DNA from: Symbiodinium sp. CCMP2592
Lineage: Eukaryota; Sar; Dinophyceae; Suessiales; Symbiodiniaceae
NCBI GenBank assembly: GCA_905221615.1
Contig: CAJNDT010006189.1
Coordinates: forward strand, 171,001 to 235,000
Direction of reading: 5' to 3'
Length of the DNA stretch: 64,000 bases
The position numbers and the translations under genes were made by a program. This document shows, piece by piece, positions 33,171 to 63,973 of the stretch. Numbering within the stretch: position 1 is the stretch's first letter; each line of letters opens with the position of its first letter. The notes under the pieces are model-generated. The model searched no databases. It was not told the DNA's origin and saw nothing but the letters and a program-made list of their open reading frames with translations.

Positions 33171-33654
33171 GAAGATCAAGGTTTGAACTGTGCCGTCATC
33201 TTCCAAAGCTTCATGAAACTGAGTCCGACAGATTGGTCTTGCAGGGCATTGGGCCTTGCCCGCTTAGTCCATCGATTCTGCACCACAGATGTCTTTCACA
33301 GCCACAAAGGGGTGGCAGCTCTGCATATGTAGCCCATTGCGCGACCCAAGATTGCGGGAAGCAAGGCCAGTGAGCGCAATTAGATCCGATTGCACATTAA
33401 TTAATGGTGAACGACTTTGCCCGCGAAGTCTGTATGTAGCAGCCTCCTTGTTTCACTCTGTACAGGTGTTAGTTGCCTCTTATTCTTGCTTCTTGTTTCT
33501 TCTAAGGTGCATGGATTCCCAATTAATAAATCCAGAGCAGACATTGGACCAGAAGTCACACCCATACCGCACAACGAGATCTTCATGGAAGCTGCATGGC
33601 CGGATGGCCAGAACACGCGATCAATGAGGCTGGTCCCCTCCCCCCCCGGGGTTT

Positions 33655-34290
33655 AACCCAGGTTAGAACCTGGGTTTGAACCTGGGTTCCCTCCCCCCGG
33701 GGGGGGGGAACAACAACAACAACCCAGGGAACCCAGGTTTGAAACCTGGGTTTAACCTGGGTTTGAACCTGGGTTTGAACCTGGGTTAAACCTGGGTTCG
33801 AACCTGGGTTCAACCCCGGGTTAAACCCAGGTTTAAACCCAGGTTATAACCCAGGTTTGAACCCAGGTTTGAAACCCAGGTTCTACCCCAGGTTTGGAAC
33901 CCGGGTTTAATGAACCCAGGTTTAACCCAGGTTAAAACCCAGGTTAAACCCAGGTTCCAACCCCAGGTTTGAAACCCAGGTTCTAACCCAGATGGGTTGA
34001 ACCCAGGTTCGAACCCTGGTTTAACCCAGGTTTGAACCCAGGTTTGAAACCCAGGTTCTAACCCAGGTTTGGAACCCGGGTTCAATGAACCCAGGTTTAA
34101 CCCAGGTTAAAACCCAGGTTAAACCCAGGTTCCAAACCCAGGTTTGAAACCCAGGTTCTCACCCCGATTTGGAACCGGGGTTTAAAAACCCAGGTTTACA
34201 CCCAGGTTATAACCCAGGTTTGAACCCAGGTTTGAAACCCAGGTTCTAACCCAGGTTTGGAACCCAAGTTTAAAGCAGCCAGGTTTAACC
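33655..34290. repeat. AACCCAGGTT-type palindromic repeat block
   Basis: Dozens of copies of AACCCAGGTT or its complement AACCTGGGTT are spaced by 1-6 bases (GGTTTGAACCCAGG and variants). Orientation is mostly CCTGGGTT before about 33,815 and mostly AACCCAGG afterwards, with a CCCCGGG centre near 33,817, which makes a large inverted repeat. Tandem reuse keeps frames open, but no protein is implied. Confidence 0.93.
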
Positions 34291-34870: not shown

Positions 34871-34959
34871 TCTGTTCTTCAAAAACTCAAATAAAGGTTG
34901 CAAACCAGATTTTGCACACACACTTTGGATTTGAAAACCGCCAATGCAGTTCAAACGCA

Positions 34960-35150
34960 GTTTAACCCAGGTTCCAAATCCAGGTTTCAACTCAGGTTCA
35001 ACCCAGGTTCCAACCCAGATTCCAACCCAGGTTTAAACACAGGTTCCGAACCCAGGTTGGAACCCAGGTTGAATCTGACGTTCAACCCAGGTTCAAACCT
35101 GGGTTTGAACCTGAACCCAGGTTCAACCCAGGTTTCCAAGCCTGCCCTTA
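34960..35150 (+). repeat. AACCCAGGTT-type repeat block, left of element A
   Basis: The same palindromic family continues (AACCCAGGTTCCAA, GGTTCAAACCTGGG) up to the target-site duplication of element A. The family resumes on the far side at 42,881. Confidence 0.9.
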
Positions 35151-35152
35151 AA

Positions 35153-35166
35153 GAAATAGTTTGGAA
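35153..35166. repeat. Target-site duplication of element A, left copy
   Basis: GAAATAGTTTGGAA, identical in all 14 bases to 42870-42883. It abuts the T8 run that is the element's A tail on the minus strand. Confidence 0.9.
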
Positions 35167-35295
35167 TTTTTTTTCTTCCTCGGACTTTTCCCATAGGGCG
35201 AATCTAGCGCTAGCTGTTTAACAGCTCTCACAAGAAACAAACTACAGGCCGTCGCTTACTTGACAGTGCAGCGTTTGTCCTTACGGCGCGAGCAC

Positions 35296-36180
35296 TTAAC
35301 ACGAAGCTTGGCGGTGACTTGACAGCTGGTTAGCGAGAATTGCCCTCCGCATTGTGAGCATTTCCACACAATGCGTTGCGTGAACGCCGTCAAACGTCGC
35401 TGGTCCATCTGCGCCACAGGGTGTCGCAGCTCTGGCTTCCAAGACTTTACGGTTCTTGCTATGCAACAGCTTAAGACTGCATCGCTCACAGGACAAGTCA
35501 AGCCCTTGCCATCTCCAAGAATGCCCGCTCGCATCCTGTGCTCTATGGACTAAAGTCAAGAACCATTCTGCCTGCGATTGTGTATGGCCGTGGCCCACAT
35601 TGGCCCCAATGCGCTTCCTACAGAGTCTGGGCTTGCCGCCTATGTCAACCTGGGAAGCTTGCTTTTTGGCAGCCTTAGCGGCCTCAAAACTTTTGACGCA
35701 AGGGTGAGCTTCATCACCTTGACTGGTTAAGACCTTGGCGGCACGGCCACTGAGCAACTCAAGAGTCGCTTCAAAAACCGCATCTTCTGCATGCAGAGTC
35801 CTGGCACCTTGATGGTTTGCGAGTTTGTGAGCTAGGTCATTGCAGAGCTTATCGGCCACAGCATTTGTGTCACGACGCCACAACTGGTCGGCTCCGAACT
35901 TCTCGACAAACTCACGCTCGCCAAGGTGAGAGTTAATCCATACAGTTTTGAGCCGCTGTGGGTCTTGCTGCCTCACTTGCTCCCAAAGGTCAGCATGAAA
36001 CTTACCTTGACACGTACCACGTAGCCGCTTATGGACTCCAAGGCAATCCATAGTGCAATCAATAGGCCCCTCAACATGTTGGAGTGAGAGCAAGACCGCA
36101 AAGAGCTCTCCGCGGAAAACGGTTTGCTGGCCAGGAAGCGTTGCGCAAAGGGTTGCATCACAGGCTGATTGTCTACCCAC
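35296..36180 (-). pseudogene. Element A: RNase HI core and C-terminal tail
   Basis: The frame carries the second half of RNase HI: R-G-E-L-F-A-V with the catalytic Glu, T-M-D-C with the catalytic Asp, then …VWINSHLGEREF and RRDTNAVADKLCNDLA, the last Asp motif. The first catalytic Asp (STDASGG) lies in the preceding frame, which joins by a frame change near 36165-36180. A Cys-rich C-terminal tail (SCERC and later Cys/His) follows. RNase H removes the RNA strand during target-primed reverse transcription. Confidence 0.85.
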
Positions 36181-36800
36181 TTGAAGGCCGCAACACTAAC
36201 CGCAACCACCCGAAGTCTAGCATCTCGAGTGAAAGGCCCTCCGCTGGCATCGGTACTGAAAGTGAGACCCCGACCATCAATGGTGTGTGCATCCTGCCAT
36301 AAACCGGTGCTTTCGCAGAGTTCCGGAATCGCAAACCTGGTGGCAACACGCAGGCCCCGAGTCCACGGCAGCTTAGATGCAACGGTTGACTCATGGTTAT
36401 ACCAATGAGGAGTGTCGAAACCTTTGTCCAGCCACCAATCACAGTCAAGAAGGACATGACGCCAACTAGCTGCAACATTGCACTTTGGGCACGTCTTTAC
36501 GGGACTATTGCCGTCATGGACAAGGCTGCCCTGCCACAAAGCCTTCAACCCTTGGTACCTAAGGGCATCACCTTTGGCCATAAATCTGGAAAGCAGCTTT
36601 CGCCCAACCGACCAATCAATCCCTTTCACCAGCTCTGGGCAATTAACCTTCCGTGCAATGCGTCTGCAGCCCTCAGCTTTCACGTCGTCAATCAAAGCCT
36701 GCAGAACAAGCGGTCTATGCTGGGCATCCAAAATGTTGTAACTCTGCACTTGGCCCCTTGGCCCGGCCGCTTCCAAACGAAGGCCTCCTGCACGTTCCAT
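35973..36800 (-). pseudogene. Element A: CCHC-like finger and start of RNase HI
   Basis: Within 275 codons, residues 104-120 form C-x2-C-x7-H-x4-C (CPKCNVAASWRHVLLDC), a zinc knuckle typical of the region between RT and RNase H in LINEs. Residues 181-187 (FSTDASG) begin RNase HI with its first catalytic Asp. The real frame enters from the RT ORF near 36750 and leaves near 36170. Residues beyond that point are out of frame. Confidence 0.82.
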
Positions 36801-37843
36801 TGGATACCTGTCATGTGCCCCACTGTGGCCGCCAAAGGCCCCTTAACATGATGCCAATTCTGTCGGTTGTCGCTGAAAGATGCCGCAGTCTGCTCCCAAA
36901 CGCGTGCAATCGGCGCCTTGTCTCGTCCCCATCTGTCGAGGGCCTTGAACCAGGACTGCACTTGCTGTGTAAGCACATCAGCCCATGGGTCACGTACTCT
37001 GTGGCTCTGAGCTGCTAGCGCTACCTCCAGGCACCCCATCTTGTGTAAACCCATTTGTTGACCAACAGCTCGCCTAAGCCACGTCACTCTACTAGGGGGG
37101 AAACCTTGCGCCTGGTGGCCCCACATCAGCGAGGAGCATACACCGCCGCAGAACAGGCGGATGCGGAATGATTGATCTGGCACCCTGAGTCTATCCAGCT
37201 TCTGCTTCCGTCCCCTACCCTTTTGCCAGCGCTTCCGTTGCACTTTGACTCTCCTTACCCTGCCCAAACCACAATCAACCCCTAAATCCCTCATACTTTG
37301 AAAGATTTTCGGATCGCTAGTGGTCAAAACCTCTTGCAAAGCTTTGCGCGCCTCTTTGGTGCTAGCCAGAAAGCCAGTCTTCTCCTCGGAAAGTTTGAGG
37401 CCGCTGTCTGCAAGGAGAGTTGCCAACTTGCGGTAACCGGCAAATGCCTGCTTCGCCACTTGAAGCGGAGAGTGAGCTTCAAAATCAGCACCTATATCAT
37501 CGACCCATGTATCTAAACCCTTGAGTCCTTCACAAGAGCTGACATCTTGCAGGATTGGCTTGAGGTACACACGAGCCATGGCTGTTGCGAAACGGCAACC
37601 TGCCAAGATCCCTTTCTCTGGGTGTATGCATGCACTCAAGATGTCTTCACTAACAATATGTCGTGTGCCACGATAGGCTTGCAGTGTTAGGGCAGCCACC
37701 TTGGGGGGGAAATTTGCATCAACCAATCTTTGCTCCAAAACCTGCAAGTCCACAAGATCATAGAAGGTTTCAAGATCAAGGAGATTTCCCCTTGCCTGCT
37801 GACTTCTCCCTTGAGAAGGCGATGGATGGCCACCTGCAAACAT
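36692..37843 (-). pseudogene. Element A: reverse transcriptase catalytic domain
   Basis: Palm motifs occur in order. Motif A is LLDLETFYDLVD at residues 21-32. Motif B is KGILAGCRFATA at 77-88. Motif C is TWVDDIG at 112-118, with WVDD replacing the more usual YADD or FADD. A thumb/linker region follows. The first ~17 residues belong to the upstream frame's sequence; the true join from the fingers ORF is near 37795. At the C-terminal end the sense sequence changes frame near 36750. Confidence 0.88.
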
Positions 37844-38283
37844 GTGTTGCCCGGTGTGGCTCTATCCCAAGGCGTGCTTGCTTGAGTTTCCCTCATCCAC
37901 TGCTGCACCGCAGGTCGTCGGCAAAAGCACCACACTCTGTAGGAGACTGATGTTAATGTGATGGGTCGCTCAATGTTGGGTTTTTTGGGAATCATACTGA
38001 CTTGATTCTGTGTCCAGTGAATCGGGGCCTGCAGCTCAGCCTCGGCTGCGTTGAGCACCGTAGCCAGCTCTTCATAAGCCTGCTTCAGTAGCCCCCTCAT
38101 GCCAGCATAAGTGAGGCCATCTAAACCTCCTGCTTTGTCAGCGGCTTTGTGAACAATCACGGAAATCTCATCTCCTGTGATGGAAGGCAAAGTGCTTTCC
38201 TGTGCTTTGGTGACAAGCTCCTGGCTAAGGACCAACTCGCGACGGGCCTCTCCCCAGATACCTACCCACTGTTGTCGGCGCAA
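37687..38283 (-). pseudogene. Element A: reverse transcriptase fingers region
   Basis: The frame contains KAAGGLDGLTYAGMRGL-like finger sequence (here KAGGLDGLTYAGMRGLLKQA) and …IPKKPNIERPITLTSVSYRV, RT motifs 0-2 with the conserved 'RPI-L' strand. Upstream, the frame can be extended to ERPFLDKPVAERSRLRRQQW, which joins the preceding ORF after removal of one T at about 38326. Downstream it passes into the palm ORF near 37795. Confidence 0.87.
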
Positions 38284-38323
38284 CCTCGAGCGTTCGGCTA
38301 CCGGCTTGTCAAGGAAAGGCCGT

Positions 38324-38734
38324 TCAAGTGCCCATTTTCATCCACTGCTTGAAGTCTTGCAAGCTCTGACTCTGCCTGCTTTGTGCAACTTGCGCCTCTG
38401 ACTCCGACACCTGGGCCTCTTCCAAGAGCCTCTGCAGTCCTTCGGCACGTTGGCCGTGGAAGGCATCACAAACCTTGACACAAAAGGCGGTGGCCTCGTC
38501 TGGCCAATTTGCAGCCTCCAACCAAACATCCGCCTGTTGTGCATTTCCGCGGGTCTGCTTCCACAGGTTTCCTCTCAAACCCGCCTGCAGCCCAGCTATG
38601 CATTTACGCATCCGCCCCCACCAACCGGTCAAAGTTAGCTTACTGTGGGCCAAAACTCTGGTTTGAGCTAGAGTGCTAGAGTTCCCCAGACTGCCCGCAC
38701 GGACTGGCCCCTGCCTTGGATAGAACCTTTGCAA
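38324..38734 (-). pseudogene. Element A: linker between endonuclease and RT
   Basis: A charged helical linker (…LEEAQVSESEAQVAQSRQSQ) that follows the endonuclease after a frame change near 38690 and passes into the RT fingers at about 38326. No domain of its own is recognised. Length and position fit an APE-class LINE polyprotein. Confidence 0.75.
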
Positions 38735-39423
38735 ACCTCCATGGCCTTAGCCCAACAAGCAAGTCCAACAGAGACCGGGTCATCACCGACAGCACACATG
38801 ATTTCCGGGTTAGTCGCGGAAACTCGCGGCCACTCGTCCTCGGCGAGGTCAAGCGCAAGCTTGCTGAACTGTTGCACTCTCCACTGCGGGTCTGCTGCTC
38901 CTGCACCCTTTATGCTTACGATCAGGGCACAGTGAGGCTTCCACGGCACAGCCCAATCGATCCTGATCGTGGTCAGGGCTTCTAGGGTGCGGCTAACGAT
39001 GACGAAATCTAGCTCGGACCCTTGCCCTTGCGTACACGTCATTTCGTGAACCGCCAAAAGCCTTCCACATAGAACCTGGACAAAACTATGCTCCATAAGT
39101 TCCTCCGGCGTGCAGTTGAAATCGTCACCTATCACCCAAGGCTCCGGCAAGGCACGGACATATGCCGCCAAATTGGCAAGGATATCCCCATTTCTCGGAC
39201 CAGCTGGCCCCTCAGAGTCTTTGAGATATATCACCCTGAGCGTATAGTCCAGACCCCCTGCTCGGAGCCCAACCGCTTCGAAGCCCGCTCCTTCCACACA
39301 GTACCTGTGCTTTTGCCAAAACCCACGATGCTTCCTGGTAACCCACGCCAAACCCCCTATCCTGTGCCCGCTGTCTCCTAAGTGGGCAGGCTCACCAAAA
39401 GTGTTCCAACGCAAGGCTTGCAA
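38668..39423 (-). pseudogene. Element A: APE-type endonuclease, main part
   Basis: The domain nicks target DNA. Visible motifs are VIGDDFNCTPEEL (residues 98-109; the G-D-F-N metal motif with an extra Asp), SELDFVIVS (136-144) and KPHCALIVSI (162-171), which includes the final catalytic His. The frame continues upstream past the nominal start as LSPAQLHDRRGTLQALRWN, which joins GVQETH of the preceding ORF by removal of one C near 39455. GVQETH is the metal-binding Q-E-T motif. Confidence 0.88.
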
Positions 39424-39436
39424 GGTGCCTCGCCTG

Positions 39437-41638
39437 TCATGCAGTTGCGCAGGACTGAGGGTGAGTCTCTTGGACTCCTATCGCAGCGCATCCGCAGGTA
39501 TTGACCCAGGCCAAAGCTGATGCATTGAATGATGTGACATTAGCGAAACCGACCTCGAGATCCGCTGGAGCGACCTGAGAAACACTGCACACATGATCAC
39601 CTGCACCTACGGGGCACCAGCTATCCTCAACTAGATGCGAAGAAACTTTCTTTATCACATGCTTGGGACCTGGCCTGACTGATGCATGGAAAGGCCCTCG
39701 CTGGGCCGTCTGGCTACACGCAGGGGTTAAGATAGGGCATCCTCGAAAGGAGTCCGGAGAGTGCTGCGGGGCCGCAGGCGAGAAAATGTTGCAATCCACC
39801 GGCTTGTCAGACATGCTTGGATATTGAAGCAGAAACTCGCTAAGGATTGCGGCTTCTTTCCAAGCCTGCTCCTCACCTTCTAGGCCAGACATGATGCGCC
39901 AGCCCACGCTATATGCACAAGAACCCTCTGGGAAAGCAGCCTCAATCGCCGTAACAACATCAATCAACTGTTTAGCGTGGTCCGGGGCAAGGTGGGAAAC
40001 CGGAGCAAGGGCACGAATGCTTTCCCAGACCCCTCCCCACTCGCCATTCCGCGGCTTTGCCACTTGAAAAGTGCCTGATTTGCATTGCACCGCAGACTGC
40101 TTTGGATCCCCAGCCTTAGGATTTGGAAAATGGCTCTGGCCTAGCCCCTCTGAGACTGCGGTGCCATGGGACGTGGTGCAAGATGAAGCCTGAACTAACC
40201 TACCACCCTCAATACCCACCGAACCGCGCCTAACAGGGTCCCTGTACTGCGTGCTAAAACTGGCTACGTGCAGACCTGGATCATCCTGCTGGTCATCCAA
40301 CGGCGTACTCCTGGCAGCTAAAACATCATTTTTATTCGCAAAGGAAACGCTATCGTCTTTTGCAGTCTTTCCACAAACTCGGCTAACATCGACATCACCA
40401 CAAGGAGAGGGCACAGTGGGAGACGAAAACGGCCCGGGCAAACCTACCGGATGATCATTGCAGTTAGCCTCACCTCCATTTGCAGCGTACGCCTGAAGGG
40501 AGCCTTTAGGTTTGAGCACACACTCAGCATCATCGAAAGATGCACTCCCACCAGCACCATCAACAACGCAATCACCCACCGATCTACACCTGGAAAGGAC
40601 CTGCTCTCCCGGTGACACACAACGTTGTCCCAGCGCAGCCAAACTACGGGGTTGGAGCTCGGAAACGCTTGGAGACCCATCCTTTGGCAAAAACTGATTT
40701 TTTACACAACTTGGTTCTACAAGACCAACAGCACAACGGACAGCTGCTTTCACAGGGCTTTGGCAGGTCGCAGACGCTGACACGCTCTCCTGCTCAGCAT
40801 TGTCGTCGCGGTACTCAAATGTCCTGCGGAAGTACTTTGGTCCTGACCAGTCTGCACACGACGCGCCTGATGTAAAGGGCCTGGCAGGTCTCTTCGGAAA
40901 CTGCCAGCCCAACCCTGATGCGTTAGAAACGATCGCCTGTGGCACTCTTGCAATTGCATCTGCGCAACCTTGGCCCCTGCACCACTCGGCACGATCTACT
41001 GTTGCATCACCCCCTAAAACAACAAAGCTGCAATCTGGGAACGCTGCAGCCTGGACCCTATCAGCGCCCCTCGCATCCTGGGTCAATGTAGCCAAGCCCG
41101 GCTCCCCACCAAGCAAACTACGAAGGGAACTTTCTCGGAACACCTCCAAACGCTGCTCCATTGTTCGGTCACAACCCTGGCACATGGACTGCAAGACTCC
41201 AGTGACATCAAGGACAAGAATCTTTAGAGCAACACTGGCTGCATCACAAGGGCGCTCACGATCAAGGCACCCCACCTTGAGAGCACTTTCGGAGTCTCCT
41301 TGAAAAGAACTCAAAATCTCGGCATCAAACCCCTTGGACAAGACACAGGCCGCATTTCCCCTTGCTTCCGGAAGTCTGCTGCCCTGGCAGGGCTTGTCGC
41401 CAGTATGACAAAACTGCGTGATCGCACGGAAGACCTGCAAACGCTGCTCCATGACTTGGTCAACACCCTGACACAAGGCAAGCAAGACACCTGTGACCCC
41501 GTGAACCAAGAGGAGCAAAGCAAAACTGAAGTCTACATGCTGGGACTGTGCCTTACCGAAATTCTGACGTGGCCACACGGAGCCCGGCCCTGCTGCAAGT
41601 GAGAACGCACCGGTCACACAACTGTTGCTCACTCCCAT
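39437..41638 (-). pseudogene. Element A: long linker ORF ending in the first endonuclease motifs
   Basis: 733 uninterrupted codons, mostly of unknown fold, with many Ser, Cys and Ala. Residues near 47-72 and 143-168 hold a duplicated segment, VTGVLLALCQGVDQVMEQRL and VTGVLQSMCQGCDRTMEQRL. The last ~40 residues start the endonuclease (…FANVTSFNASALAWVN, then GVQETH), after which a single-base frameshift and stop break it. It is in the same frame as the N-terminal ORF at 41876-42652, separated from it by two TAG codons. Confidence 0.8.
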
Positions 41639-41665
41639 GGGCCTGCAACCCCGCTGACCATAGCC

Positions 41666-42652
41666 CTATCCCTGATTCACACCCTCCTTGGTACGCGGGG
41701 ATCTGCTGCGATCCTTCTTTCCTGCCTGGCCTACTGGCAAGGCCCCGGCCTCGCCTGTTCCTAGCATTTCATGATCGCGATCCGTCGGACCTGGATTTTG
41801 CTCGGGCACACGTGACTGCACTGGAACACCAATCTTGGCTGGGGCAGGCACGGCTGCCAACTGGGCACGGACACGCTACTCAGCTTCTGCGTCAAGCTGC
41901 ACACCCGCTCTAGACATAGCTTCAAAAAACGCCTCGAAGTGTTTTAAGTCTTCCACTGGAGGCTCCACCTTGCTGTCAAATTCGCCCAGCTTGGCTTGCA
42001 GCTGCTTTTGCAGATCCTCCACTTCGGCTTGCTTAGCACTCAACTGCTCTGTGAGGGTCTGCATGCCACGCAAGAGCTCCTCGTACGTCTGCTTTGCTTT
42101 ATCAATGCGGGCCTGCAGCGACACTGATTGCTGCACAAGGTCCCTCAAGGAGTTGGTCTCAGCCTTGAAGCGCCGGTTTAGGTCTGACACCGCCTGCCCG
42201 TACGTAGGCTCTTGCTTGGGCTCTTGCAAGAGCTTTTGGATGCTCTCTGGCAACGATGACAGGTGCTGCCTGCAGGCTTCTTTCAGATCAGGCTCACTTG
42301 TCGTCACTGGGCTGCAGTGGATGCCATGCGATTTCAGAGTGGCCTGCAACTTGCTATCAAAAGAACCCCAATGCACCTTCAAAGCTTCAAGGACGTCTGC
42401 TGGCCACAATGCGCTTGTATCCAAGCCTGGCGGCGGCTGGACTTTTGACTTCCTAACCTTTGGCGCCTTCCAGCGTGCGCTTTCCCACCTGGGCCACTGA
42501 CCCTCCAGTGGGCCAGTTTGCCCAGACGCTGCTAACGACTTAGCCCACAAGGTGTTGCACTGACTGCAGTGAGTGTGTTTGCTGCAGCGATCAGTCCAAA
42601 GCCAGCTGTTGCACGCTTTGTTGCAGCAGACAACGTACGATCTCTGAGGCAT
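41666..42652 (-). pseudogene. Element A: N-terminal zinc-ribbon and coiled-coil region
   Basis: The frame starts with ATG at 42652. Residues 9-32 hold CCNKAC and HCSQC, a Cys4-type zinc ribbon with spacing C-x3/4-C-x14-C-x2-C. Residues about 170-240 form a coiled coil (…TLTEQLSAKQAEVEDLQKQL). This arrangement suits an RNA-binding, oligomerising ORF1-like part. TAG at 41876-41878 interrupts it; the frame then continues with plausible protein (…VPAPAKIGVPVQSR) to a second TAG at 41666-41668 and on into the 733-codon ORF. The whole protein may originally have been one polyprotein. Confidence 0.8.
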
Positions 42653-42848
42653 GGTTCAGTGCTGAAGCCAAGGTTCCAAGAAAATCAGTTTAGATCCAAG
42701 CAAATCACAAGAAATCAAGGAAAATCAAGCACTGATTCAAGGAAACTATGGCTCGCTACTGGGTAACTACGCAAGCAGCACCTCAGGGTACTGCTCTTCC
42801 ACTGTGTGGTGGGGATTGCAAGCTACCAGGAAGTCGCTGCTGACTGAA
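42653..42848 (-). other. Element A: 5' untranslated region
   Basis: About 200 bases lie between the spliced-leader relics and the first ATG. They include AAATCA/CAAGG-rich phrases. No internal promoter motif is recognised. Confidence 0.6.
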
Positions 42849-42869
42849 CTGAGCCAAAAACTTGAGCCA
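42849..42869 (-). other. Spliced-leader relics at the 5' end of element A
   Basis: Reading inward from the target-site duplication on the minus strand, the element begins TGGCTCAAG and continues TTTTTGGCTCAG. The 3' end of the dinoflagellate spliced leader is CCATTTTGGCTCAAG. The first block matches its last nine bases exactly. The second matches TTTTGGCTCAAG with one base missing. Tandem leader relics are known in dinoflagellate retrogenes, where a trans-spliced mRNA is copied back into the genome and trans-spliced again. Here the leader sits precisely at the insertion border. Confidence 0.72.
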
Positions 42870-42883
42870 GAAATAGTTTGGAA
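42870..42883. repeat. Target-site duplication of element A, right copy
   Basis: GAAATAGTTTGGAA, identical to 35153-35166. It runs directly into ACCCAGGTTTAACCTGGG repeat sequence, showing the insertion target was the AACCCAGGTT family. Confidence 0.9.
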
Positions 42884-43200
42884 CCCAGGTTTAACCTGGG
42901 TTCCAACCCCCCCCTCTGAAACCAGTCCGCGATCAGTGAAATAAACAAGTGCCGAGAGAAGAACATGTTAAGCGTTGGTGTTCGTTCCGCCCGGCTCCTC
43001 CAAAGATAGAAAGCGGAACCATAAATCAGCGTCGTCAAAGCTATCATCGCACAGAGGACGGCAAATTCCAACGAAACGGAGCACGAGCATAGGTTTTTGG
43101 AGTGTTCCGGAACCCAGGGTTCAAACTCCCGGGGGGCCCGGGGGGGGGGGAGAACATATAATATAACTCCGGAACTCAGGGTTGAACCCTGGGTTCGAAC
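42881..43200. repeat. AACCCAGGTT-type repeats, right of element A
   Basis: GAACCCAGGTTTAACCTGGGTTCC at 42881-42904 and related phrases at 43110-43130 and 43170-43220. Unique-looking DNA lies between them. Confidence 0.8.
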
Positions 43201-43221
43201 TTCTCGAACCCAGGTTGAACC

Positions 43222-43450
43222 TGGAGTTTGAACTCTATGTTCAAACCCTGGGTTCGGGAACTCTATGTTCGAACCCAGGGTTCGGGAACTCTATGTTCGA
43301 ACCCTGGATTCGGGAACTCTATGTTCGAACCCGAGGTTTAGGGTACTCCATGTTCGAACCCCGGGTTCGGGAACTCCTCCCCCTTTCCCAGAGAGTCCAA
43401 ACCGGGGTTTGGGGAACTCTATGTTGGAACCTCGGGTTCTGGAAGTCGTC
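43222..43450 (+). repeat. 28-29 bp tandem repeat (AACTCTATGTTCGAACCC unit)
   Basis: AACTCTATGTTCGAACCC plus GGGTTCGGG occurs at 43231, 43259, 43287 and 43315, with diverged copies near 43344 and 43410. The spacing is 28, 28, 28 and 29. It appears to have expanded from the AACCCAGGTT family. Two further isolated copies lie at 44460-44530. Confidence 0.88.
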
Positions 43451-43559
43451 CCCCCTTCGGAGCGTTCGAACCCTGGGAGGGGCTGCGCCCCCCCCAATCC
43501 CCCCGCTGTGCTTGCCGAAAACAAAGAAAAAGGCTGGCAATGACCAGTCCCTGCCACAA

Positions 43560-44430: not shown

Positions 44431-45065
44431 GAGAGAACAAGAATCAATATACAAGAGTTCGAACTCTGGGTTTGGAAACTCCATGTTCGAACTTCGGGTT
44501 TGGAAACTCTATGTTCGAAACCTGGGTTTCAACTTTTTTTGGCTTGACTGAGCCTCGTAGACTTCGGCTGTAGCACTCGGTCCCAACAAACAAGCGAACA
44601 CAAACTACAAACAAACAAAGCGGTGAGACAGCAAAGCGAAGCTCTACAAAGGGCTGCGGCGCACAGATTTTGCCGGTGTTAGCCGTTCAGCACCAAACTA
44701 CGGAGCCTTAGCGACCGGTCAGGAGCAACGAAAAGCTGTCGCTCAGAGCTGCCCAAAACAATAGGTGGAGGCTCCAGTTGCCGTTCTAGTCTTGCCAGAC
44801 AACGGACAACCCCCTGTGTTTTGTTCCGTTACGATTGTGCACACCAAAATCCAAAAGTCTAGGCCCATTGCATGCGTGGGCGGCTTCCTGATAAGCGAAG
44901 CCACTAAGGAGAGTGGCTGTGCATTCCACTTGTTCCGGCACAAGGATGGTTCTTACGGCCTTCTGTCTCCAGCATGAATCCGTGTGCCAGCTCATGGCTG
45001 AGGAGGAGGCAACAGATGTAAGACCCAGATTAACGAGTAGACTGAGAGGAATTAGAGCTGCAATA

Positions 45066-45116
45066 GTAGTGGCAGTAGTCGTAGTAGTAGTAGCAGAAGT
45101 AGTAGTAGCAGTAGTG

Positions 45117-45168
<52 letters not shown>

Positions 45169-45300
45169 ATGTAGAAGTGGTAGTAGTAGATGTGGAAGTG
45201 GTAGTAGTAGTAGTAGTAGTCGTAGTTGTAATTGTAGTTGTAGTAGTAGTAGTAGTAGTCGTAGTTGTAATTGTAGTTGTAGCAGTAGTAGTAGTAGTAT
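45066..45300 (+). repeat. (AGT)n array
   Basis: AGT runs with GTAGTTGTAATTGTAGTTGTAGC interruptions. On the minus strand the array directly follows an A-rich end of the RNase H remnant (AAAAATACTACTAC). Confidence 0.92.
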
Positions 45301-47570: not shown

Positions 47571-47727
47571 CTCGGACAGGTGCACAGGACGCGTCTGTTC
47601 ACAACAAGGTGGCGGAAGACTGAGCAGTTTGAGAGGAATATGAGCGATGAATGCTCGCAGATAATCAGTTTCACGAGTGCACGGACCAAAGGCGCCCGCA
47701 AAGCGCAGAGCACGCTTGTTCAATTGA

Positions 47728-47920
47728 ATAGTAGTAGTAGCAGTAGTAGTAGTAGCAGCAGTAGTAGTAGTAGTAGTAGTAGTGGTTGTAGTAGTAGTAG
47801 TAGTAGTAGTATGTAGTAGTAGTAGTAGTAGTAGTCGTAGTCGTAGTAGTAGCAGTAGTAGTGGTAGTAGTAGTGGTAGTAGTACTAGTGGAAGAAGTAG
47901 TAATAGTCGTAGTCGTCGTA
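47728..47920 (+). repeat. (AGT)n array
   Basis: AGT/AGC runs, then AGT/CGT mixtures to about 47,920, like the arrays at 5.2, 7.5 and 45.1 kb. Confidence 0.92.
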
Positions 47921-58153: not shown

Positions 58154-59062
58154 TCACATGTAAGGGTCTTCAGTAACATGTCCTGTCCAAATCGGGAATC
58201 CCATGGCTCGCAACCGGTGTAGGCAGTCATCCGAGAGTCTCCAGCCATCGCGAATGTGATAGGCGATGAGAACACATCGGTTGCCCACCCAAGGCATTGT
58301 ACAATGCGCACGGTGCGCATTGAAAAGCACATAGGGCGGAGTCACATCCAGAGTCCTACCACGCATGCCCTCATGCATGATGTTACCTGAGTCGTCCTCA
58401 ATCCATAGGGCGCCTCCAAACTCCCAGCGAGTAATCGGGATGACAATGTTGGAGAGCATCGGATGGTTGTGCGAATCTTTGTGTAATCCCGTCTGTAAGT
58501 TGGAAGAGAGCGTCACAGTGGAAAAGGGCAGCCCGGAGCACCTGGCATTAACTGTAGCCGCGAGCAAGCGTGTGAGGAGAGGATAGGTGCCCACATTGGT
58601 CATGGCACCTGCCTCACCACCAAAAGCATACGCACCTGTCTGGAAGGCAAACGATGTCACTCCCATGTTGATGCGCTCTCTGGTGCGTTTGGTCTGCGGT
58701 AACACCTGAGCAAGCATGTTGAGCAAGATACCAAAGTCTGCGTATGTAACGACTTGTCGCCGAAGGCAATCAAAGGCAAACTGCTCGATGGGATTCGTAG
58801 GCTGCTCAACCGTATCAATCGACATGGGAGCACTCAAAAGAAACGTTTCATGATCCTCGGCCGCCACCTCTCGGCTAGCTGCGTATCTGGGCTCCGCCCC
58901 ATGCACATACTCAGTCCAGTTTGAAATAACATCAGCTGAAGACGGTACCTCCGGTGTAGATGCTCCATACATTCGGTCCCCGATCGGATCAGCATCAGTA
59001 GGTGTGGACATGGCGAGCGGCCGGTGTACAGTAAAGGCAGCTGGGTGGCAGGGTAGTGGCAT
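58154..59062 (-). CDS. Fe(II)/2-oxoglutarate-dependent dioxygenase-like ORF
   Basis: A 302-codon intact ORF. The C-terminal half has the double-stranded beta-helix signature of Fe(II)/2-oxoglutarate oxygenases. TGLHKDSHNHP supplies H-x-D at residues 194-196. GGALWIEDDSG follows at 216-226, the usual G-rich strand. FNAHRAHCTMPWVGNRCVLI supplies the distal His (H253) and, nine residues later, the 2-oxoglutarate-binding Arg (R262). The H-x-D plus His plus Arg spacing is complete, so the domain looks catalytically competent. Members oxidise proteins, nucleic acids or small molecules; the substrate cannot be read from sequence. An H-x-D-x-x-N core also occurs in TET/JBP-type DNA-base oxidases, an interesting but unproven comparison. 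The ATG at 59062 is first; a second Met (residue 18) is also possible. Confidence 0.72.
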   Translation of the reverse strand: MPLPCHPAAFTVHRPLAMSTPTDADPIGDRMYGASTPEVPSSADVISNWTEYVHGAEPRYAASREVAAEDHETFLLSAPMSIDTVEQPTNPIEQFAFDCLRRQVVTYADFGILLNMLAQVLPQTKRTRERINMGVTSFAFQTGAYAFGGEAGAMTNVGTYPLLTRLLAATVNARCSGLPFSTVTLSSNLQTGLHKDSHNHPMLSNIVIPITRWEFGGALWIEDDSGNIMHEGMRGRTLDVTPPYVLFNAHRAHCTMPWVGNRCVLIAYHIRDGWRLSDDCLHRLRAMGFPIWTGHVTEDPYM

Positions 59063-59406
59063 GAGGATTAGGGCAGGGGAAACCGAGGCGGGTTCGTGGT
59101 TTTGGCGCTGGCATGCGAATTGCTCCTGCCCCTATATAGGCGCTTAGCTTAAGCACCTACATTGGTACGGGAGCACTAAAAAAACCGGGACAAAGTCGTG
59201 CTGTCCTGCAGCCAAGGGCTGTGTACATTAACATGTCAAAGTGAAGAATCGTAACATAAGCAATGGATCGGGCAGGCAGCTGATGCAAGCGCGCCACAAA
59301 ATTTGGGCACACTCATCGGCGTGATCCACATGACCCCGTGCTCAAGGGCCCTAGTTGACCCGGTGACAAGGGCATCCCGCGACGAATCGCAGCGGATGCC
59401 CAGGAA
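59063..59406 (-). promoter_or_regulatory. Spacer between the USP-like and dioxygenase ORFs, with T tract and TATA-like site
   Basis: On the minus strand the spacer contains CCCGGTTTTTTTAGTGCTCC (about 59190-59170) and CCTATATAGGGGCAGGAGC (about 59142-59124), 60-130 bases before the dioxygenase ATG. Dinoflagellate promoters have been associated with a TTTT box in place of TATA. A promoter or a trans-splice acceptor for a separate message is an inference. Confidence 0.28.
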
Positions 59407-59877
59407 CTAGACATCAGGAACGAGGCGGAGCAACCCCAACAGGTAACAGTTACCATATAACCAAGGCTGCCTATTCTTGGGTAATTTACCTGGGGTCACC
59501 CCATCATCTGACAAAAAGATTTGCCGCTCAGCGCACATGGCGCACTGGTAGTGGCCTGCCCGGGGGCTGGCACCCGTGTGTACAACGGCAAATGCGACTC
59601 TGTAGTTACACCACTGGACACTGAGGGAGCGTCCACTCTGAAAGATCGGCAGCCGGCATATGGCACCTTCGCGAATGGGCATAGGGTGCTGAGTTTTGTG
59701 AGCACGTCCGCCCTCAAAGCTAAAACACCTAAGCTGAACGACAACAAGGGTGGTGCAAGCTGTGAGCGCATGTACCGGGGTTTGGGCGTGCCAGGCATGG
59801 ACAATGTCTTGAAAGGTTCGGCCAACAACCGTCATCGCAATGGGCTGCCACAAGTACGCTTGGTCGTGCACCTCCAC
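59407..59877 (-). pseudogene. Element B: USP-like protease, C-terminal half with His box
   Basis: YRVAFAVVHTGASPRAGHYQ followed by FLSDDGVTPGKL is the His box of ubiquitin-specific proteases (G-H-Y with the catalytic His at residue 109, and a D-D-x-x-V strand after it). It lies 140 codons beyond the QNDASEF block of the preceding ORF in another frame, with the frame change near 59870 (…VEVHDQAYLW here against …WRCTTKRT there). The stop follows at 59407. Confidence 0.78.
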
Positions 59878-61643
59878 CCCTGACTCGCTGGCTCTACCAG
59901 CACGTCAGGCTCAGCGCGATGCATTAGGTAGGACCAGAACTCGGACGCATCATTCTGCCTATACAGCTCAGCCCAAGCCCGGAGATGCGGCATCCACGGC
60001 AGCAGACCTGGTACACAGAGGGGTTTTCGGGGGGTGCTGGCGTGAAGGGCAATGCAGGCCGAGGTGAGTGCCCCAAAGACGGCACGCTGGTCTGGAAGGA
60101 CCTGCGCAATCCAGTGCCATGCCACTAAACAAGCATTAAGGTAACACAGGTTATTAGGGTTGGCAAGGCAGAGGTTTAGGGGTCTCCTAGGCCAGTGCGC
60201 CTCTACAAGTCCGCCATATCTGCTCGTGTCGAGTCTGGGTCCGAGCTCTTGCCCGCTTCCTTCGGCTTCAGGTCGGCGGCGGCATTCATCTGCGGATTGG
60301 TGTGATCCAGAAGATTGGAGGCTGCTTGCGAGAGTAGGCGCAAGCGGCTGCCGCTTCATCCTTTCCTGGCGCAAGCGTGCGCCCACCAGGCGAAGGCAGG
60401 AGTTGTCGCAGATCTGGATCAGGGACTGATGCAGGCTTTGGGCTTCGGAGCCTCGATTGGATACCATGATGAGGAAGGGCAGGACCGGCGAGCGGTACTC
60501 GCTTGCCATCTTCCGCGTCGCGTGGAACTTGTGCAGGAGCCCGTCTTGGCCTGCCAGCTCGTTGATCTTGGTGAGGGCGTTCAAGGCTTCCGAGTGCGGC
60601 AATGGCGGGCGGCTGTTGTCCACTTCCTGGCGCTCCGTTGTGGGGTTCCAGCGTAGGTAGGCCCAGGACGGAGGGTCCACCGCTGTGATCCATCCGTGCT
60701 TGACAAGTGTCGGCCTCATCTCCGGGGTAAGCGCTTGCTCCATCTTCTGTCGCATTGTTACCATGATCGACACGAGGAGGGTAGTCCTGAGGCTTTGCTT
60801 GACTTGCGGCGGCACCGCTTCTTTCTTCTCCTTCCATTCTTGGGAGATTTTGAACAGCTGCGCCGTCATCCCCATGCCCTGTGTGTCCATGTACAGGAGG
60901 AACGAGCAGTCCGTTCTCAGGGCTGCCTCTGTGTCCTCGTGGCGCAAGGCCAGTCGCGTCAGAAGCGCAACCACTTCCCTCAGTTCGTCCCCCGAGACTG
61001 CTTGGCTCAAGGAGTTCTGGGAGTGCTCATGCCCCACGAGTCCCACTCCTGCTGTGTCCACTTCTGCTCCTTGCCTTGGCGTCCTCCGCGCCCATCGCCA
61101 AAGCCCTTGTGTGACGGGCGCTGCCACTTGGGCGGTCTGTCGGAGTCCAGCGCTTCGCGAGTCTCTCGCGCTTGATTCGGCAGTCCCAGCAGCTGTCCGT
61201 ACACCTCGGAGATCTCCTTCTCGGCTGAGTCCGTCATGAAGGGTCACCTCGGGGTTTCGAAGAGGGAACATCATGCAAGCCTGGAAGTAGGCAGGACAAT
61301 TGGGTGCATGCAGGGCACTGCTGGCAGGAGTGAACGCGCAAGCTTTGCAGGGCCCCCGGTAGCGGAGGCGATGATGCTTCTTGAGCCGCCTGAGGACGGC
61401 GTCGCGAAGGGCCCAGCGTTCAGCATGCATACGACGCATGTGCGTCTTGACACCTCCTCTATCATAGCTGCACCATTGTGTGCAGAAAATGCAGTAGTGG
61501 CGCAAACGCTCGCCGCATTTTTCGGCACACGCAACCCAGTCGGCATCAATGTTCCTCTGACTTTCTGGGTCCTGAAAGAATGGGCAGAGTGTATTAGTTT
61601 CGGTCTCATCAGTAGGAGCGCTGCGCCCCGCAGCGGACTGCAC
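59832..61643 (-). CDS. Element B: zinc finger, helical region and USP Cys box
   Basis: 603 codons. Residues 51-73 form a C2H2 finger (C51-x2-C54-x13-H68-x4-H73). Residues 230-425 form an unrecognised helical domain (…LFKISQEWKEKKEAV, …PFLIMVSNRGSEAQSLHQSL). Residues 493-506 (LANPNNLCYLNACL) match the USP Cys box G-L-x-N-x-G-N-T-C-Y-L-N, with C500 the likely nucleophile. Residues 562-570 (RQNDASEFW) match the Q-Q-D-A-x-E-F block. The protease could release or process the polyprotein, or cut host ubiquitin conjugates. The frame is entered from the RT ORF near 61,810 through a CRHCRARFRKWRGFQNHI finger that lies upstream of the nominal start. Confidence 0.8.
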   Translation of the reverse strand: MQSAAGRSAPTDETETNTLCPFFQDPESQRNIDADWVACAEKCGERLRHYCIFCTQWCSYDRGGVKTHMRRMHAERWALRDAVLRRLKKHHRLRYRGPCKACAFTPASSALHAPNCPAYFQACMMFPLRNPEVTLHDGLSREGDLRGVRTAAGTAESSARDSRSAGLRQTAQVAAPVTQGLWRWARRTPRQGAEVDTAGVGLVGHEHSQNSLSQAVSGDELREVVALLTRLALRHEDTEAALRTDCSFLLYMDTQGMGMTAQLFKISQEWKEKKEAVPPQVKQSLRTTLLVSIMVTMRQKMEQALTPEMRPTLVKHGWITAVDPPSWAYLRWNPTTERQEVDNSRPPLPHSEALNALTKINELAGQDGLLHKFHATRKMASEYRSPVLPFLIMVSNRGSEAQSLHQSLIQICDNSCLRLVGARLRQERMKRQPLAPTLASSLQSSGSHQSADECRRRPEAEGSGQELGPRLDTSRYGGLVEAHWPRRPLNLCLANPNNLCYLNACLVAWHWIAQVLPDQRAVFGALTSACIALHASTPRKPLCVPGLLPWMPHLRAWAELYRQNDASEFWSYLMHRAEPDVLVEPASQGWRCTTKRTCGSPLR

Positions 61644-63973
61644 AGCGGGCGCAGCGACCGACTGATTGGTAGGGGGAACCTGGTCATGAGCCGTATTTGG
61701 GGAGTGTAAGACGGGGCAAACACTGAGGATATGATTCTGAAACCCACGCCATTTGCGGAATCTAGCACGGCAGTGTCTACAGACCGGAATGCATCCACGC
61801 TGTGTGAAGCGACATCAATGGCTGCTCTAGCCTCCGGTCGGCGTAGGTCAGCGCTGACAAGACTGATGTGATGGCTTTTGGCGCAGTGTATGCGCATTAT
61901 GCGCTGATCAGAGTAGTAGACCCCGCAAACCGGACACGGTACCCCTGCACTATCGCACTGCGTGAGTGTGCTGTACATGCGGGCCTGCAAGGTTTCCTGA
62001 TATGCCTCATAGAGAAGTCTGGACCTCTGCTCGAGTACACGATCCCCCGGGAAGGGAAAGTGCAGTGTAGCAGCCTGTTGTTGGCACGAGTGGTACATGC
62101 GACCTAGGGCATCAGCAATCGGCTCATACTGGAGCCGCTTTTGCAGGTCCGCACTACGCTCACGGAAAAGGTGGCTCGGTGAACACGCAATGGCCCGGAT
62201 GTGCTTAATCTCGAATTTTTCAAGTGTCCGTAGTCCGGCAGCAGTGATGCCAGTGGACAGTACCCCATGGAGCAATGTACTGCGTACACAGGTGCGATAC
62301 ATCTGCAATGATTGCTGTATCGTCAGGCCCTTGCGTGAGAAGAGGAGACCTCGAAGCCGCGCTACTGTGGTGCGTGCCGCCTTGAGGCGGAGCTGGACTG
62401 TCTGATCCTCGTAAAGCCCGAAACTCATGACAGTTCCAAGATACTCAATGCGATCAACTATGGGGATGAGGATGGGTTGGAAGGGGGTACCCAGGTTAAG
62501 GTGCCTACGATTCTTAACATAGGTTTCATGCTTCTTCAACCATTGCTGAAATGCAACCCCAGTGGCACGCAAGAGTAAGTGCGACTTGTCAGCGTTGACT
62601 TGCATGCCCGCCTCTGCTAGCGCCTGAAAAAGTGACTGAACGCGTTTTGTCATGACCCGGGCATCTTCGACCGTACTGAGATCAAAGGCGCTGGCAAAGT
62701 CGTCAGCATATGCAGTGACGTCGTCAGCTATCCAGGCGTTGGCCGATTGGAGCTCGGCGCGATGCAGCATGTATGCGGTTACACATGCCCATAACAGAGG
62801 TGATAACACGCATCCCTGTCTTATGCCATTTCTGAGGGCAATGGTGCCCTCATGCTGTTTATGGCGCACATGATACTCTGCGCGGTGCAACGCAAGGATA
62901 ATGGCTATGGTATCCTCGTCGATACCCACGAATCGGAGCGCGGATGCCATGTACTGATGATCTACCTGGTCGAAAGCCTTCGACATGTCGATGGAAAGTA
63001 TGGCGGCTCCCGCGACTATGGGCTTGGGCGCGCCGGCGCGCCGATCGTGCACCTCTCGCCTGGAGTTCTGCAGTGTGCGTCTGGCTGTGTCACACCTCTG
63101 AGCGACTCTGGCAATCGCAGTTTGGGTGGAACGACCCGGCAAGTATGCGAACTGCGGGACAGCCTCTAGCTTCGGAAGCACAACATCCAGGACTCTATTC
63201 TTAATGATGCGGGCAAGGCATTTGCCAGTGGGGCACTGCAACGCAAGGGGTCTTAGACTAGAGGGGATTTTAGTAGGCTTGTTGGGTTTTGGCATGAGGC
63301 ACAGCCAGCCGTCACGCCAATGCATTGGAAAACAGAGCACGCCAGGTTGCAGATGCTGTGAGTACAGGCTGCGCAGGCTGGGGAGCAAGAGCTCTCGAAA
63401 AGCTTTCCAGACCTCCGGTGGGACGCATCCCGGCGGGACTGCCTTGCCGGATTTCTGTTTACTAAGGCTGTCAAGGATCTCATCGTCGGTGACATTATAG
63501 GGCTTCATTATGGTGAGTGTGCTACCATCAACATCGGGGCCCTGTGAGAATATCCGACCAAAGTACTCAACAATAGCCTCGTACTCACCTTGACTGCTAA
63601 GTATTTCATTGTCCGGACCACGTATTTGGATACGCTCTTTAGGGGATTTAGGCGCAAGCCGTTTTACACATTGGTAGAGGCGGAACATGTCACCTTTGCG
63701 CGCAGCCTGCTCAGCTTCCTGCAAAACTGCATCCACCAAGGCTCTCCTGCGCTCGCGGCCCCGCCGCTTTAGTAACATTTGGCTCTGCTGGAAACGCTGA
63801 TGCAATCTAAAGGCCTCAAAGACATGACGGAGCTGAAGCATGCGACTAGTACGAACCCGGTTTCGTGCAAGGATACCGTGCTGCTTCATGGTCCGGTAGT
63901 GTCTCCACATATCCTTGACTTCTAGGCTTGTAGCAGGATCTTGCCAAGGTCTTAGCGGGCGCACTGCTCCCAT
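61271..63973 (-). CDS. Element B: reverse transcriptase polyprotein, 5' end outside window
   Basis: 900 open codons, of which roughly the first 720 are in the true frame. RT motifs: RPLALQCPTGKCLARIIKNR (residues 241-260); motif A AILSIDMSKAFDQVDH (324-339); motif B RNGIRQGCVLSPLLW (381-395); motif C TAYADDFASAF (420-430) with the YADD catalytic pair; and ADKSHLLLRA. C-terminal thumb and linker follow, then a C2H2 finger at residues 680-701 (CPVCGVYYSDQRIMRIHCAK). The arrangement of RT followed by a CCHC/C2H2 finger occurs in APE-class and R2-like LINEs. Past residue 720 the sequence is out of frame. The ORF is open at its upstream end, so the true start lies beyond the window. Confidence 0.85.
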   Translation of the reverse strand: MGAVRPLRPWQDPATSLEVKDMWRHYRTMKQHGILARNRVRTSRMLQLRHVFEAFRLHQRFQQSQMLLKRRGRERRRALVDAVLQEAEQAARKGDMFRLYQCVKRLAPKSPKERIQIRGPDNEILSSQGEYEAIVEYFGRIFSQGPDVDGSTLTIMKPYNVTDDEILDSLSKQKSGKAVPPGCVPPEVWKAFRELLLPSLRSLYSQHLQPGVLCFPMHWRDGWLCLMPKPNKPTKIPSSLRPLALQCPTGKCLARIIKNRVLDVVLPKLEAVPQFAYLPGRSTQTAIARVAQRCDTARRTLQNSRREVHDRRAGAPKPIVAGAAILSIDMSKAFDQVDHQYMASALRFVGIDEDTIAIILALHRAEYHVRHKQHEGTIALRNGIRQGCVLSPLLWACVTAYMLHRAELQSANAWIADDVTAYADDFASAFDLSTVEDARVMTKRVQSLFQALAEAGMQVNADKSHLLLRATGVAFQQWLKKHETYVKNRRHLNLGTPFQPILIPIVDRIEYLGTVMSFGLYEDQTVQLRLKAARTTVARLRGLLFSRKGLTIQQSLQMYRTCVRSTLLHGVLSTGITAAGLRTLEKFEIKHIRAIACSPSHLFRERSADLQKRLQYEPIADALGRMYHSCQQQAATLHFPFPGDRVLEQRSRLLYEAYQETLQARMYSTLTQCDSAGVPCPVCGVYYSDQRIMRIHCAKSHHISLVSADLRRPEARAAIDVASHSVDAFRSVDTAVLDSANGVGFRIISSVFAPSYTPQIRLMTRFPLPISRSLRPLCSPLRGAALLLMRPKLIHSAHSFRTQKVRGTLMPTGLRVPKNAASVCATTAFSAHNGAAMIEEVSRRTCVVCMLNAGPFATPSSGGSRSIIASATGGPAKLARSLLPAVPCMHPIVLPTSRLA

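Follow-up and report, generated by a model that had tools for sequence, protein, structure and literature searches.

Symbiodinium hosts trans-splice the dinoflagellate spliced leader (PMC6050394, PMC7245778), which is described as the 22-nt sequence DCCGTAGCCATTTTGGCTCAAG (PMC7245778, PMC12014239). In leader relics, the outer leader was reported to be better kept and the inner one worn (PMC3229502), and truncated outer leaders (CTCAAG) placed before a canonical relic have been reported in transcripts (PMC12014239). The reverse transcriptase behind the many leader-tagged retrogenes of dinoflagellates was described as unknown in one account, which favoured LTR elements (PMC6050394), and the LINEs of Symbiodiniaceae were described as likely remnants of an ancient expansion (PMC8045281). 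Leaders have also been connected with mobile DNA in two other settings. In Schistosoma mansoni, six genome-encoded leaders merged with transposable elements were reported, possibly trans-spliced and then retro-transcribed (PMC5832876). In Symbiodinium, the dinoSL was found within 500 bp of 6 of the 26 inserted RdRp ORFs of endogenous dinoRNAV, and LINE activity was proposed as the cause of these insertions with dinoSL (PMC10235124). The portions of the literature searched describe no LINE of a dinoflagellate that carries the leader at its border, and an earlier description is possible. Here, we describe such a candidate, designated element A, in a window of 64 kb, which is the whole stretch of DNA that was analysed.

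Borders and coding capacity of element A

Element A is a LINE-type insertion of 7,702 bp that runs on the minus strand from 42868 to 35167, and all of its features given below are on the same strand. The whole element (35167..42868) was delimited by a scan for duplications and A-tails and by comparison with homologues. It is flanked by an exact 15-bp target-site duplication, AGAAATAGTTTGGAA on the plus strand, with one copy at the 5' end of the element (42869..42883) and an identical copy at the 3' end (35152..35166), and these are the only two occurrences of this sequence in the window. The 3' A-tail consists of A8 on the sense strand (35167..35174). The structure scan considered exact repeats of at least 11 bp lying 150–12,000 bp apart, with at least seven A in the eight bases before the 3' copy, and left out low-complexity words and words with more than six copies. 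Exactly one structure of this kind was found on both strands of the 64 kb, namely element A. Self-comparison revealed no long repeat joining the two ends, that is, no long terminal repeats, and the combination seen in LINEs of a duplication and a 3' A-tail without long terminal repeats is present. Units of about 12 bp with a near-palindromic form (AACCCAGGTT / AACCTGGGTT and their kin) occur at 33650-34260, 34940-35145, 42883-42907 and 43110-43480 of the window, those of the AACCCAGGTT type near both flanks of the element, and element A landed inside or beside an array of such units. Long trinucleotide runs of the GTA/TAG type were also observed at 45060-45300 and 47725-47915, on either side of a stretch of about 2.4 kb.

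The first coding region, ORF1 (41669..42652), starts at 42652 (element position 217) and has an open frame of 258 aa that ends with a stop at 41876, and the homology runs past this stop to 41669 according to tblastn with P0002 and P0004. By eye, its N-terminus is zinc-knuckle-like and its middle part coiled-coil-like. ORF1 matched 12 proteins, the window's own included, one of which is named as Symbiodinium sp. CCMP2592. A search with the ORF1 alignment, which scored no more than the 8,000 candidates with the most words in common, gave at least 17 proteins in all, with one further named as Symbiodinium sp. KB8. In ORF2, the endonuclease domain (approximate limits 38890..39559, with a frame change inside) matched PF03372 (Exo_endo_phos) when it was read through across one frame change (E 5.6e-5; 23.4 bits against a cut-off of 24.5), and the unjoined endonuclease piece gave no Pfam match. 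The reverse transcriptase core (37358..37780), with a WVDD box recognized by eye, matched PF00078 below the curated cut-off (E 3.2e-4; 20.9 bits against 29.6), and a precomputed column lists PF00078 for 11 of the 18 proteins related to this piece. Five of these 18 relatives carry organism names, each of them Symbiodinium, and among the named ones the highest identity was that of a protein from CCMP2592 (78% over 39% of the query). The reverse transcriptase and the apurinic-type endonuclease that characterize such LINEs are both found, each with a match below its curated cut-off. The C-terminal region of ORF2 (35359..36740) has 46-47% identity to P0035 in two frames and is RNase H-like by eye only, and Pfam gave no RNase H match for the window pieces or for P0035. 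No match was obtained in PDB sequence searches, those for the endonuclease included, and the structure models of the reverse transcriptase and endonuclease pieces (mean pLDDT 41 and 35, respectively) were too poor to use.

By comparison with the homologues, the frame of ORF2 changes at least six times (2-1-2-1-3-2-3). Given these changes and the stop in ORF1, this copy is dead, unless indels in the assembly are to blame, and the term autonomous, which the initial annotation applied to the LINE, does not hold for it. We read element A as the decayed remnant of a Symbiodiniaceae-like LINE with an ORF1 and an endonuclease-reverse transcriptase ORF2. The named relatives of ORF1 and of the reverse transcriptase are all Symbiodinium and point to such a host, which would trans-splice this leader. 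Two other ORFs of the window, both on the minus strand, gave weak matches. The ORF at 58154-59131 resembles the Tet_JBP family of 2OG-Fe oxygenases (E 0.0041, below the cut-off), a match of interest in view of the modified thymine known from dinoflagellate DNA. In the 660-aa ORF at 59832-61814, a C2H2 finger was weakly matched (E 0.053), and a part close to the C-terminus resembles a ubiquitin protease by eye.

Leader blocks at the 5' border

Across the 5' border, the sense (minus) strand reads ...TTCCAAACTATTTCT up to the end of the duplication and continues within the element as GGCTCAAG TTTTTGGCTCAG TTCAGTCAGC... Leader block 1, GGCTCAAG (42861..42868), matches the final 8 nt of the dinoflagellate leader and lies at the exact insertion border. 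An exact match of nine leader bases had been claimed there. Eight of them (42868-42861) belong unambiguously to element A, but the ninth, the T at 42869, is shared with the duplication, of which it is the last base. Leader block 2, TTTTTGGCTCAG (42849..42860), follows with no further bases in between, and edit-distance comparison places it two edits from the leader end. Its 12 bases comprise ten exact leader bases, TTTTGGCTCA, preceded by a T in place of A and followed by the loss of one A, and the near match proposed for this block was confirmed. GGCTCA is common to both blocks. Each block ends in AG, with 13 pyrimidines among the 20 bases before it, and the pyrimidine tracts before both AG sites are ordinary, not strong. 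The two blocks form the first 20 nt of a 5' untranslated region of 216 nt (42653..42868), after which the ATG of ORF1 stands at element position 217. A third, older relic deeper in this region was also considered and rejected, the best score in the next 60 nt being 3, which is common in random stretches. A motif scan for a leader-like peptide, such as gene models extending upstream of ORF1 might encode, found none in the first 60 residues of 35 proteins, and this says little because P0010 alone extended ORF1 upstream by much. Like the SL-tagged retrocopies of dinoflagellates, element A has the leader end at its 5' terminus. The canonical form of the tandem relic, which starts with CCATTTTGGCTCAAG, is not seen, and block 2 lacks the CCA start.

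Origin of the blocks and rival explanations

We hypothesize, with a probability of roughly three in four, that element A arose by target-primed reverse transcription, the template being a polyadenylated LINE mRNA to which the 22-nt leader of the host had been trans-spliced. A leader at the 5' border together with an exact duplication and an A-tail is what would be expected of a trans-spliced mRNA template. The LINE transcript, probably read through from upstream, would be trans-spliced near its 5' end and then polyadenylated. Reverse transcription from a nick at the new site would start in the A-tail, proceed through the whole of element A and end within the leader, of which the last 8-9 bases would remain, and the second end would be joined via one base of microhomology. 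The inner block would most likely be the worn leader of an earlier round, and the AG of the relic may serve as a portable splice acceptor, by which a read-through transcript could get a fresh leader cap without an internal promoter. The order of an exact outer block and a worn inner block matches that of the described relics (PMC3229502). On the other side, relics in genomes are reported to be longer and to contain CCGTAG (PMC6616646), whereas element A has only 8-9 of the 22 leader bases, and its inner block is without the canonical CCA start; both points count against the trans-spliced template, as do the single copy, the ordinary pyrimidine tracts and the domain matches below their cut-offs. 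The CTCAAG leaders mentioned above mean that truncation of the outer leader has a precedent (PMC12014239).

The leader end is not enriched across the window, which also counts against the trans-spliced template. TTGGCTCAAG at no more than one mismatch has 4 matches in the window versus 7.8 in shuffles, and the 15-mer CCATTTTGGCTCAAG, allowed up to three mismatches and no gaps, is absent from the window, where shuffles give 2.7. It might be proposed that the blocks are due to chance, or that the family has a native 5' UTR which happens to look like the leader, GGCTCA having been duplicated on the spot. The sharing of GGCTCA by both blocks agrees with this, as does the frequency of GGCTCAAG alone, for which about 4 occurrences would be predicted on the two strands of 64 kb (4.1 in shuffles) and 3 were found. 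The other two occurrences, at 61004-61011 (plus) and 61380-61387 (minus), have no second block, and the structure scan shows no border there. The case for a leader rests on the border position and the tandem. Chance is unlikely because the border is set by the duplication, independently of the leader. A leader suffix of at least 8 starts at 6 of 127,920 positions, which make up three separate sites including the border of element A, and 12 of 60,000 sampled positions come as near as two edits to the leader end. The tandem reached a score of 17, whereas the best of 8,000 sampled positions scored 12, under a setting that the null was also allowed to try, and it appeared in 0 of 200 dinucleotide shuffles. 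The rarities of the two blocks are not fully independent, since they share GGCTCA, and should not simply be multiplied. Taken with the border position, these values make a fortuitous or native resemblance very improbable.

The remaining explanations accept a real leader and differ in how and when it was acquired. Both blocks could have been added at once, in one round only, if the LINE mRNA was trans-spliced to a tandem-SL RNA. Tandem-SL genes are reported in Fugacium, and the authors of that report propose this origin for tandem leaders (PMC6616646), but the tandem-SL units described there are AGCCATTTTGGCTCAAG, and block 2 has no CCA. Block 2 has two edits and block 1 none, which also speaks against a common donor, although with 20 bases in all this is weak evidence. 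We consider a single round unlikely and two rounds of leader-tagged retrotransposition likely. A single round would be compatible with the trans-spliced template, and its probability is not additive with the others; it disputes only the statement that the LINE used such a template at least twice, which went beyond the evidence, as one tandem-SL donor could give both blocks and the second is without the CCA start. Another explanation dates the leader to an ancestral copy made from a trans-spliced mRNA, after which the blocks would have been transcribed from DNA as ordinary family 5' UTR, with no fresh leader at this insertion. The worn state of block 2, its integration in the 5' UTR and the single copy seen are consistent with such a fossil leader. 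However, block 1 shows no change from the leader and sits directly at the border. Without a fixed family start there, a transcript beginning by chance at just that base would be coincidental, and we regard this history as improbable. A jump of the reverse transcriptase from LINE RNA to SL RNA during insertion would have a precedent in human L1, whose reverse transcriptase is known to jump to small RNAs. It is the least credible origin and would be very surprising here, as the junction falls at the end of the leader exon and no further bases stand between the two blocks.

The trans-spliced mRNA template of the LINE, as put forward in the initial annotation, is therefore likely at this locus on account of the duplication, the A-tail and the leader border, but as a rule for the family it goes beyond the evidence, which comes from one locus and one copy. 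Scans of viral contigs with the reverse transcriptase piece, the ORF1 alignment and the reverse transcriptase alignment, and of bacterial and archaeal contigs with the ORF1 and reverse transcriptase alignments, gave no confirmed relative among records that may omit those near the window's own genome. A pattern scan of the viral contigs with the 15-nt relic returned 37 stretches, most of which are plausibly chance matches. An AT-rich contig among those catalogued as viral, L001 (IMGVR_UViG_3300045993_001077), carries the leader twice on the minus strand (2746-2764 and 2893-2911), each time as CCGTAGCCATTTTGGCTCAAG and with a spacing of 147 bp, also matches the 19-mer, and shows a GC-richer 254-aa ORF (1936-2700) after the second leader copy. 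L001 may have arisen when a virus of dinoflagellates captured a host mRNA. More tentatively, and at somewhat less than even odds, we propose that a whole lineage of dinoflagellate LINEs replicates via host trans-spliced mRNAs. The leader would then provide the cap and the 5' end in each round, the relic would be a portable acceptor, an internal promoter would be unneeded, and the same machinery would make the leader-tagged retrogenes. Element A predicts leader ends at the borders of other copies. If a LINE bears the leader at a border that is defined by a duplication, LINE machinery would be shown to accept trans-spliced templates, and leader use could explain the mobility of a promoterless LINE in a genome with read-through transcription.

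Element A among known leader-associated elements

The L1Tc/ingi LINEs of trypanosomes are, like element A, LINEs in a trans-splicing host, and their hallmark is the 5' Pr77 promoter/ribozyme. As these LINEs have a 5' promoter/ribozyme module of their own, leader use by a LINE in such a host is not automatic (PMC4035085). With regard to an HDV-like ribozyme, an Rfam scan of the window gave no family at the gathering score. The dinoRNAV fragments of Symbiodinium are unlike element A in that their cargo is viral and the leader is only nearby and not at the border (PMC10235124). The SL-containing retrotransposons of Schistosoma mansoni are closest to element A, in another host and with another leader. 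In that account, the authors left assembly chimaeras open and the part available to us does not describe a duplication at the border (PMC5832876). The retrogenes of dinoflagellates share with element A the leader end at the 5' end of an mRNA-derived DNA copy, sometimes in tandem and with the outer copy better kept, and their relics, as described, start with CCA, unlike block 2 of element A (PMC6050394, PMC12014239, PMC3229502). Element A differs from these retrogenes further in that the copied mRNA would be the LINE's own, and in that its border is fixed by the duplication and the A-tail.
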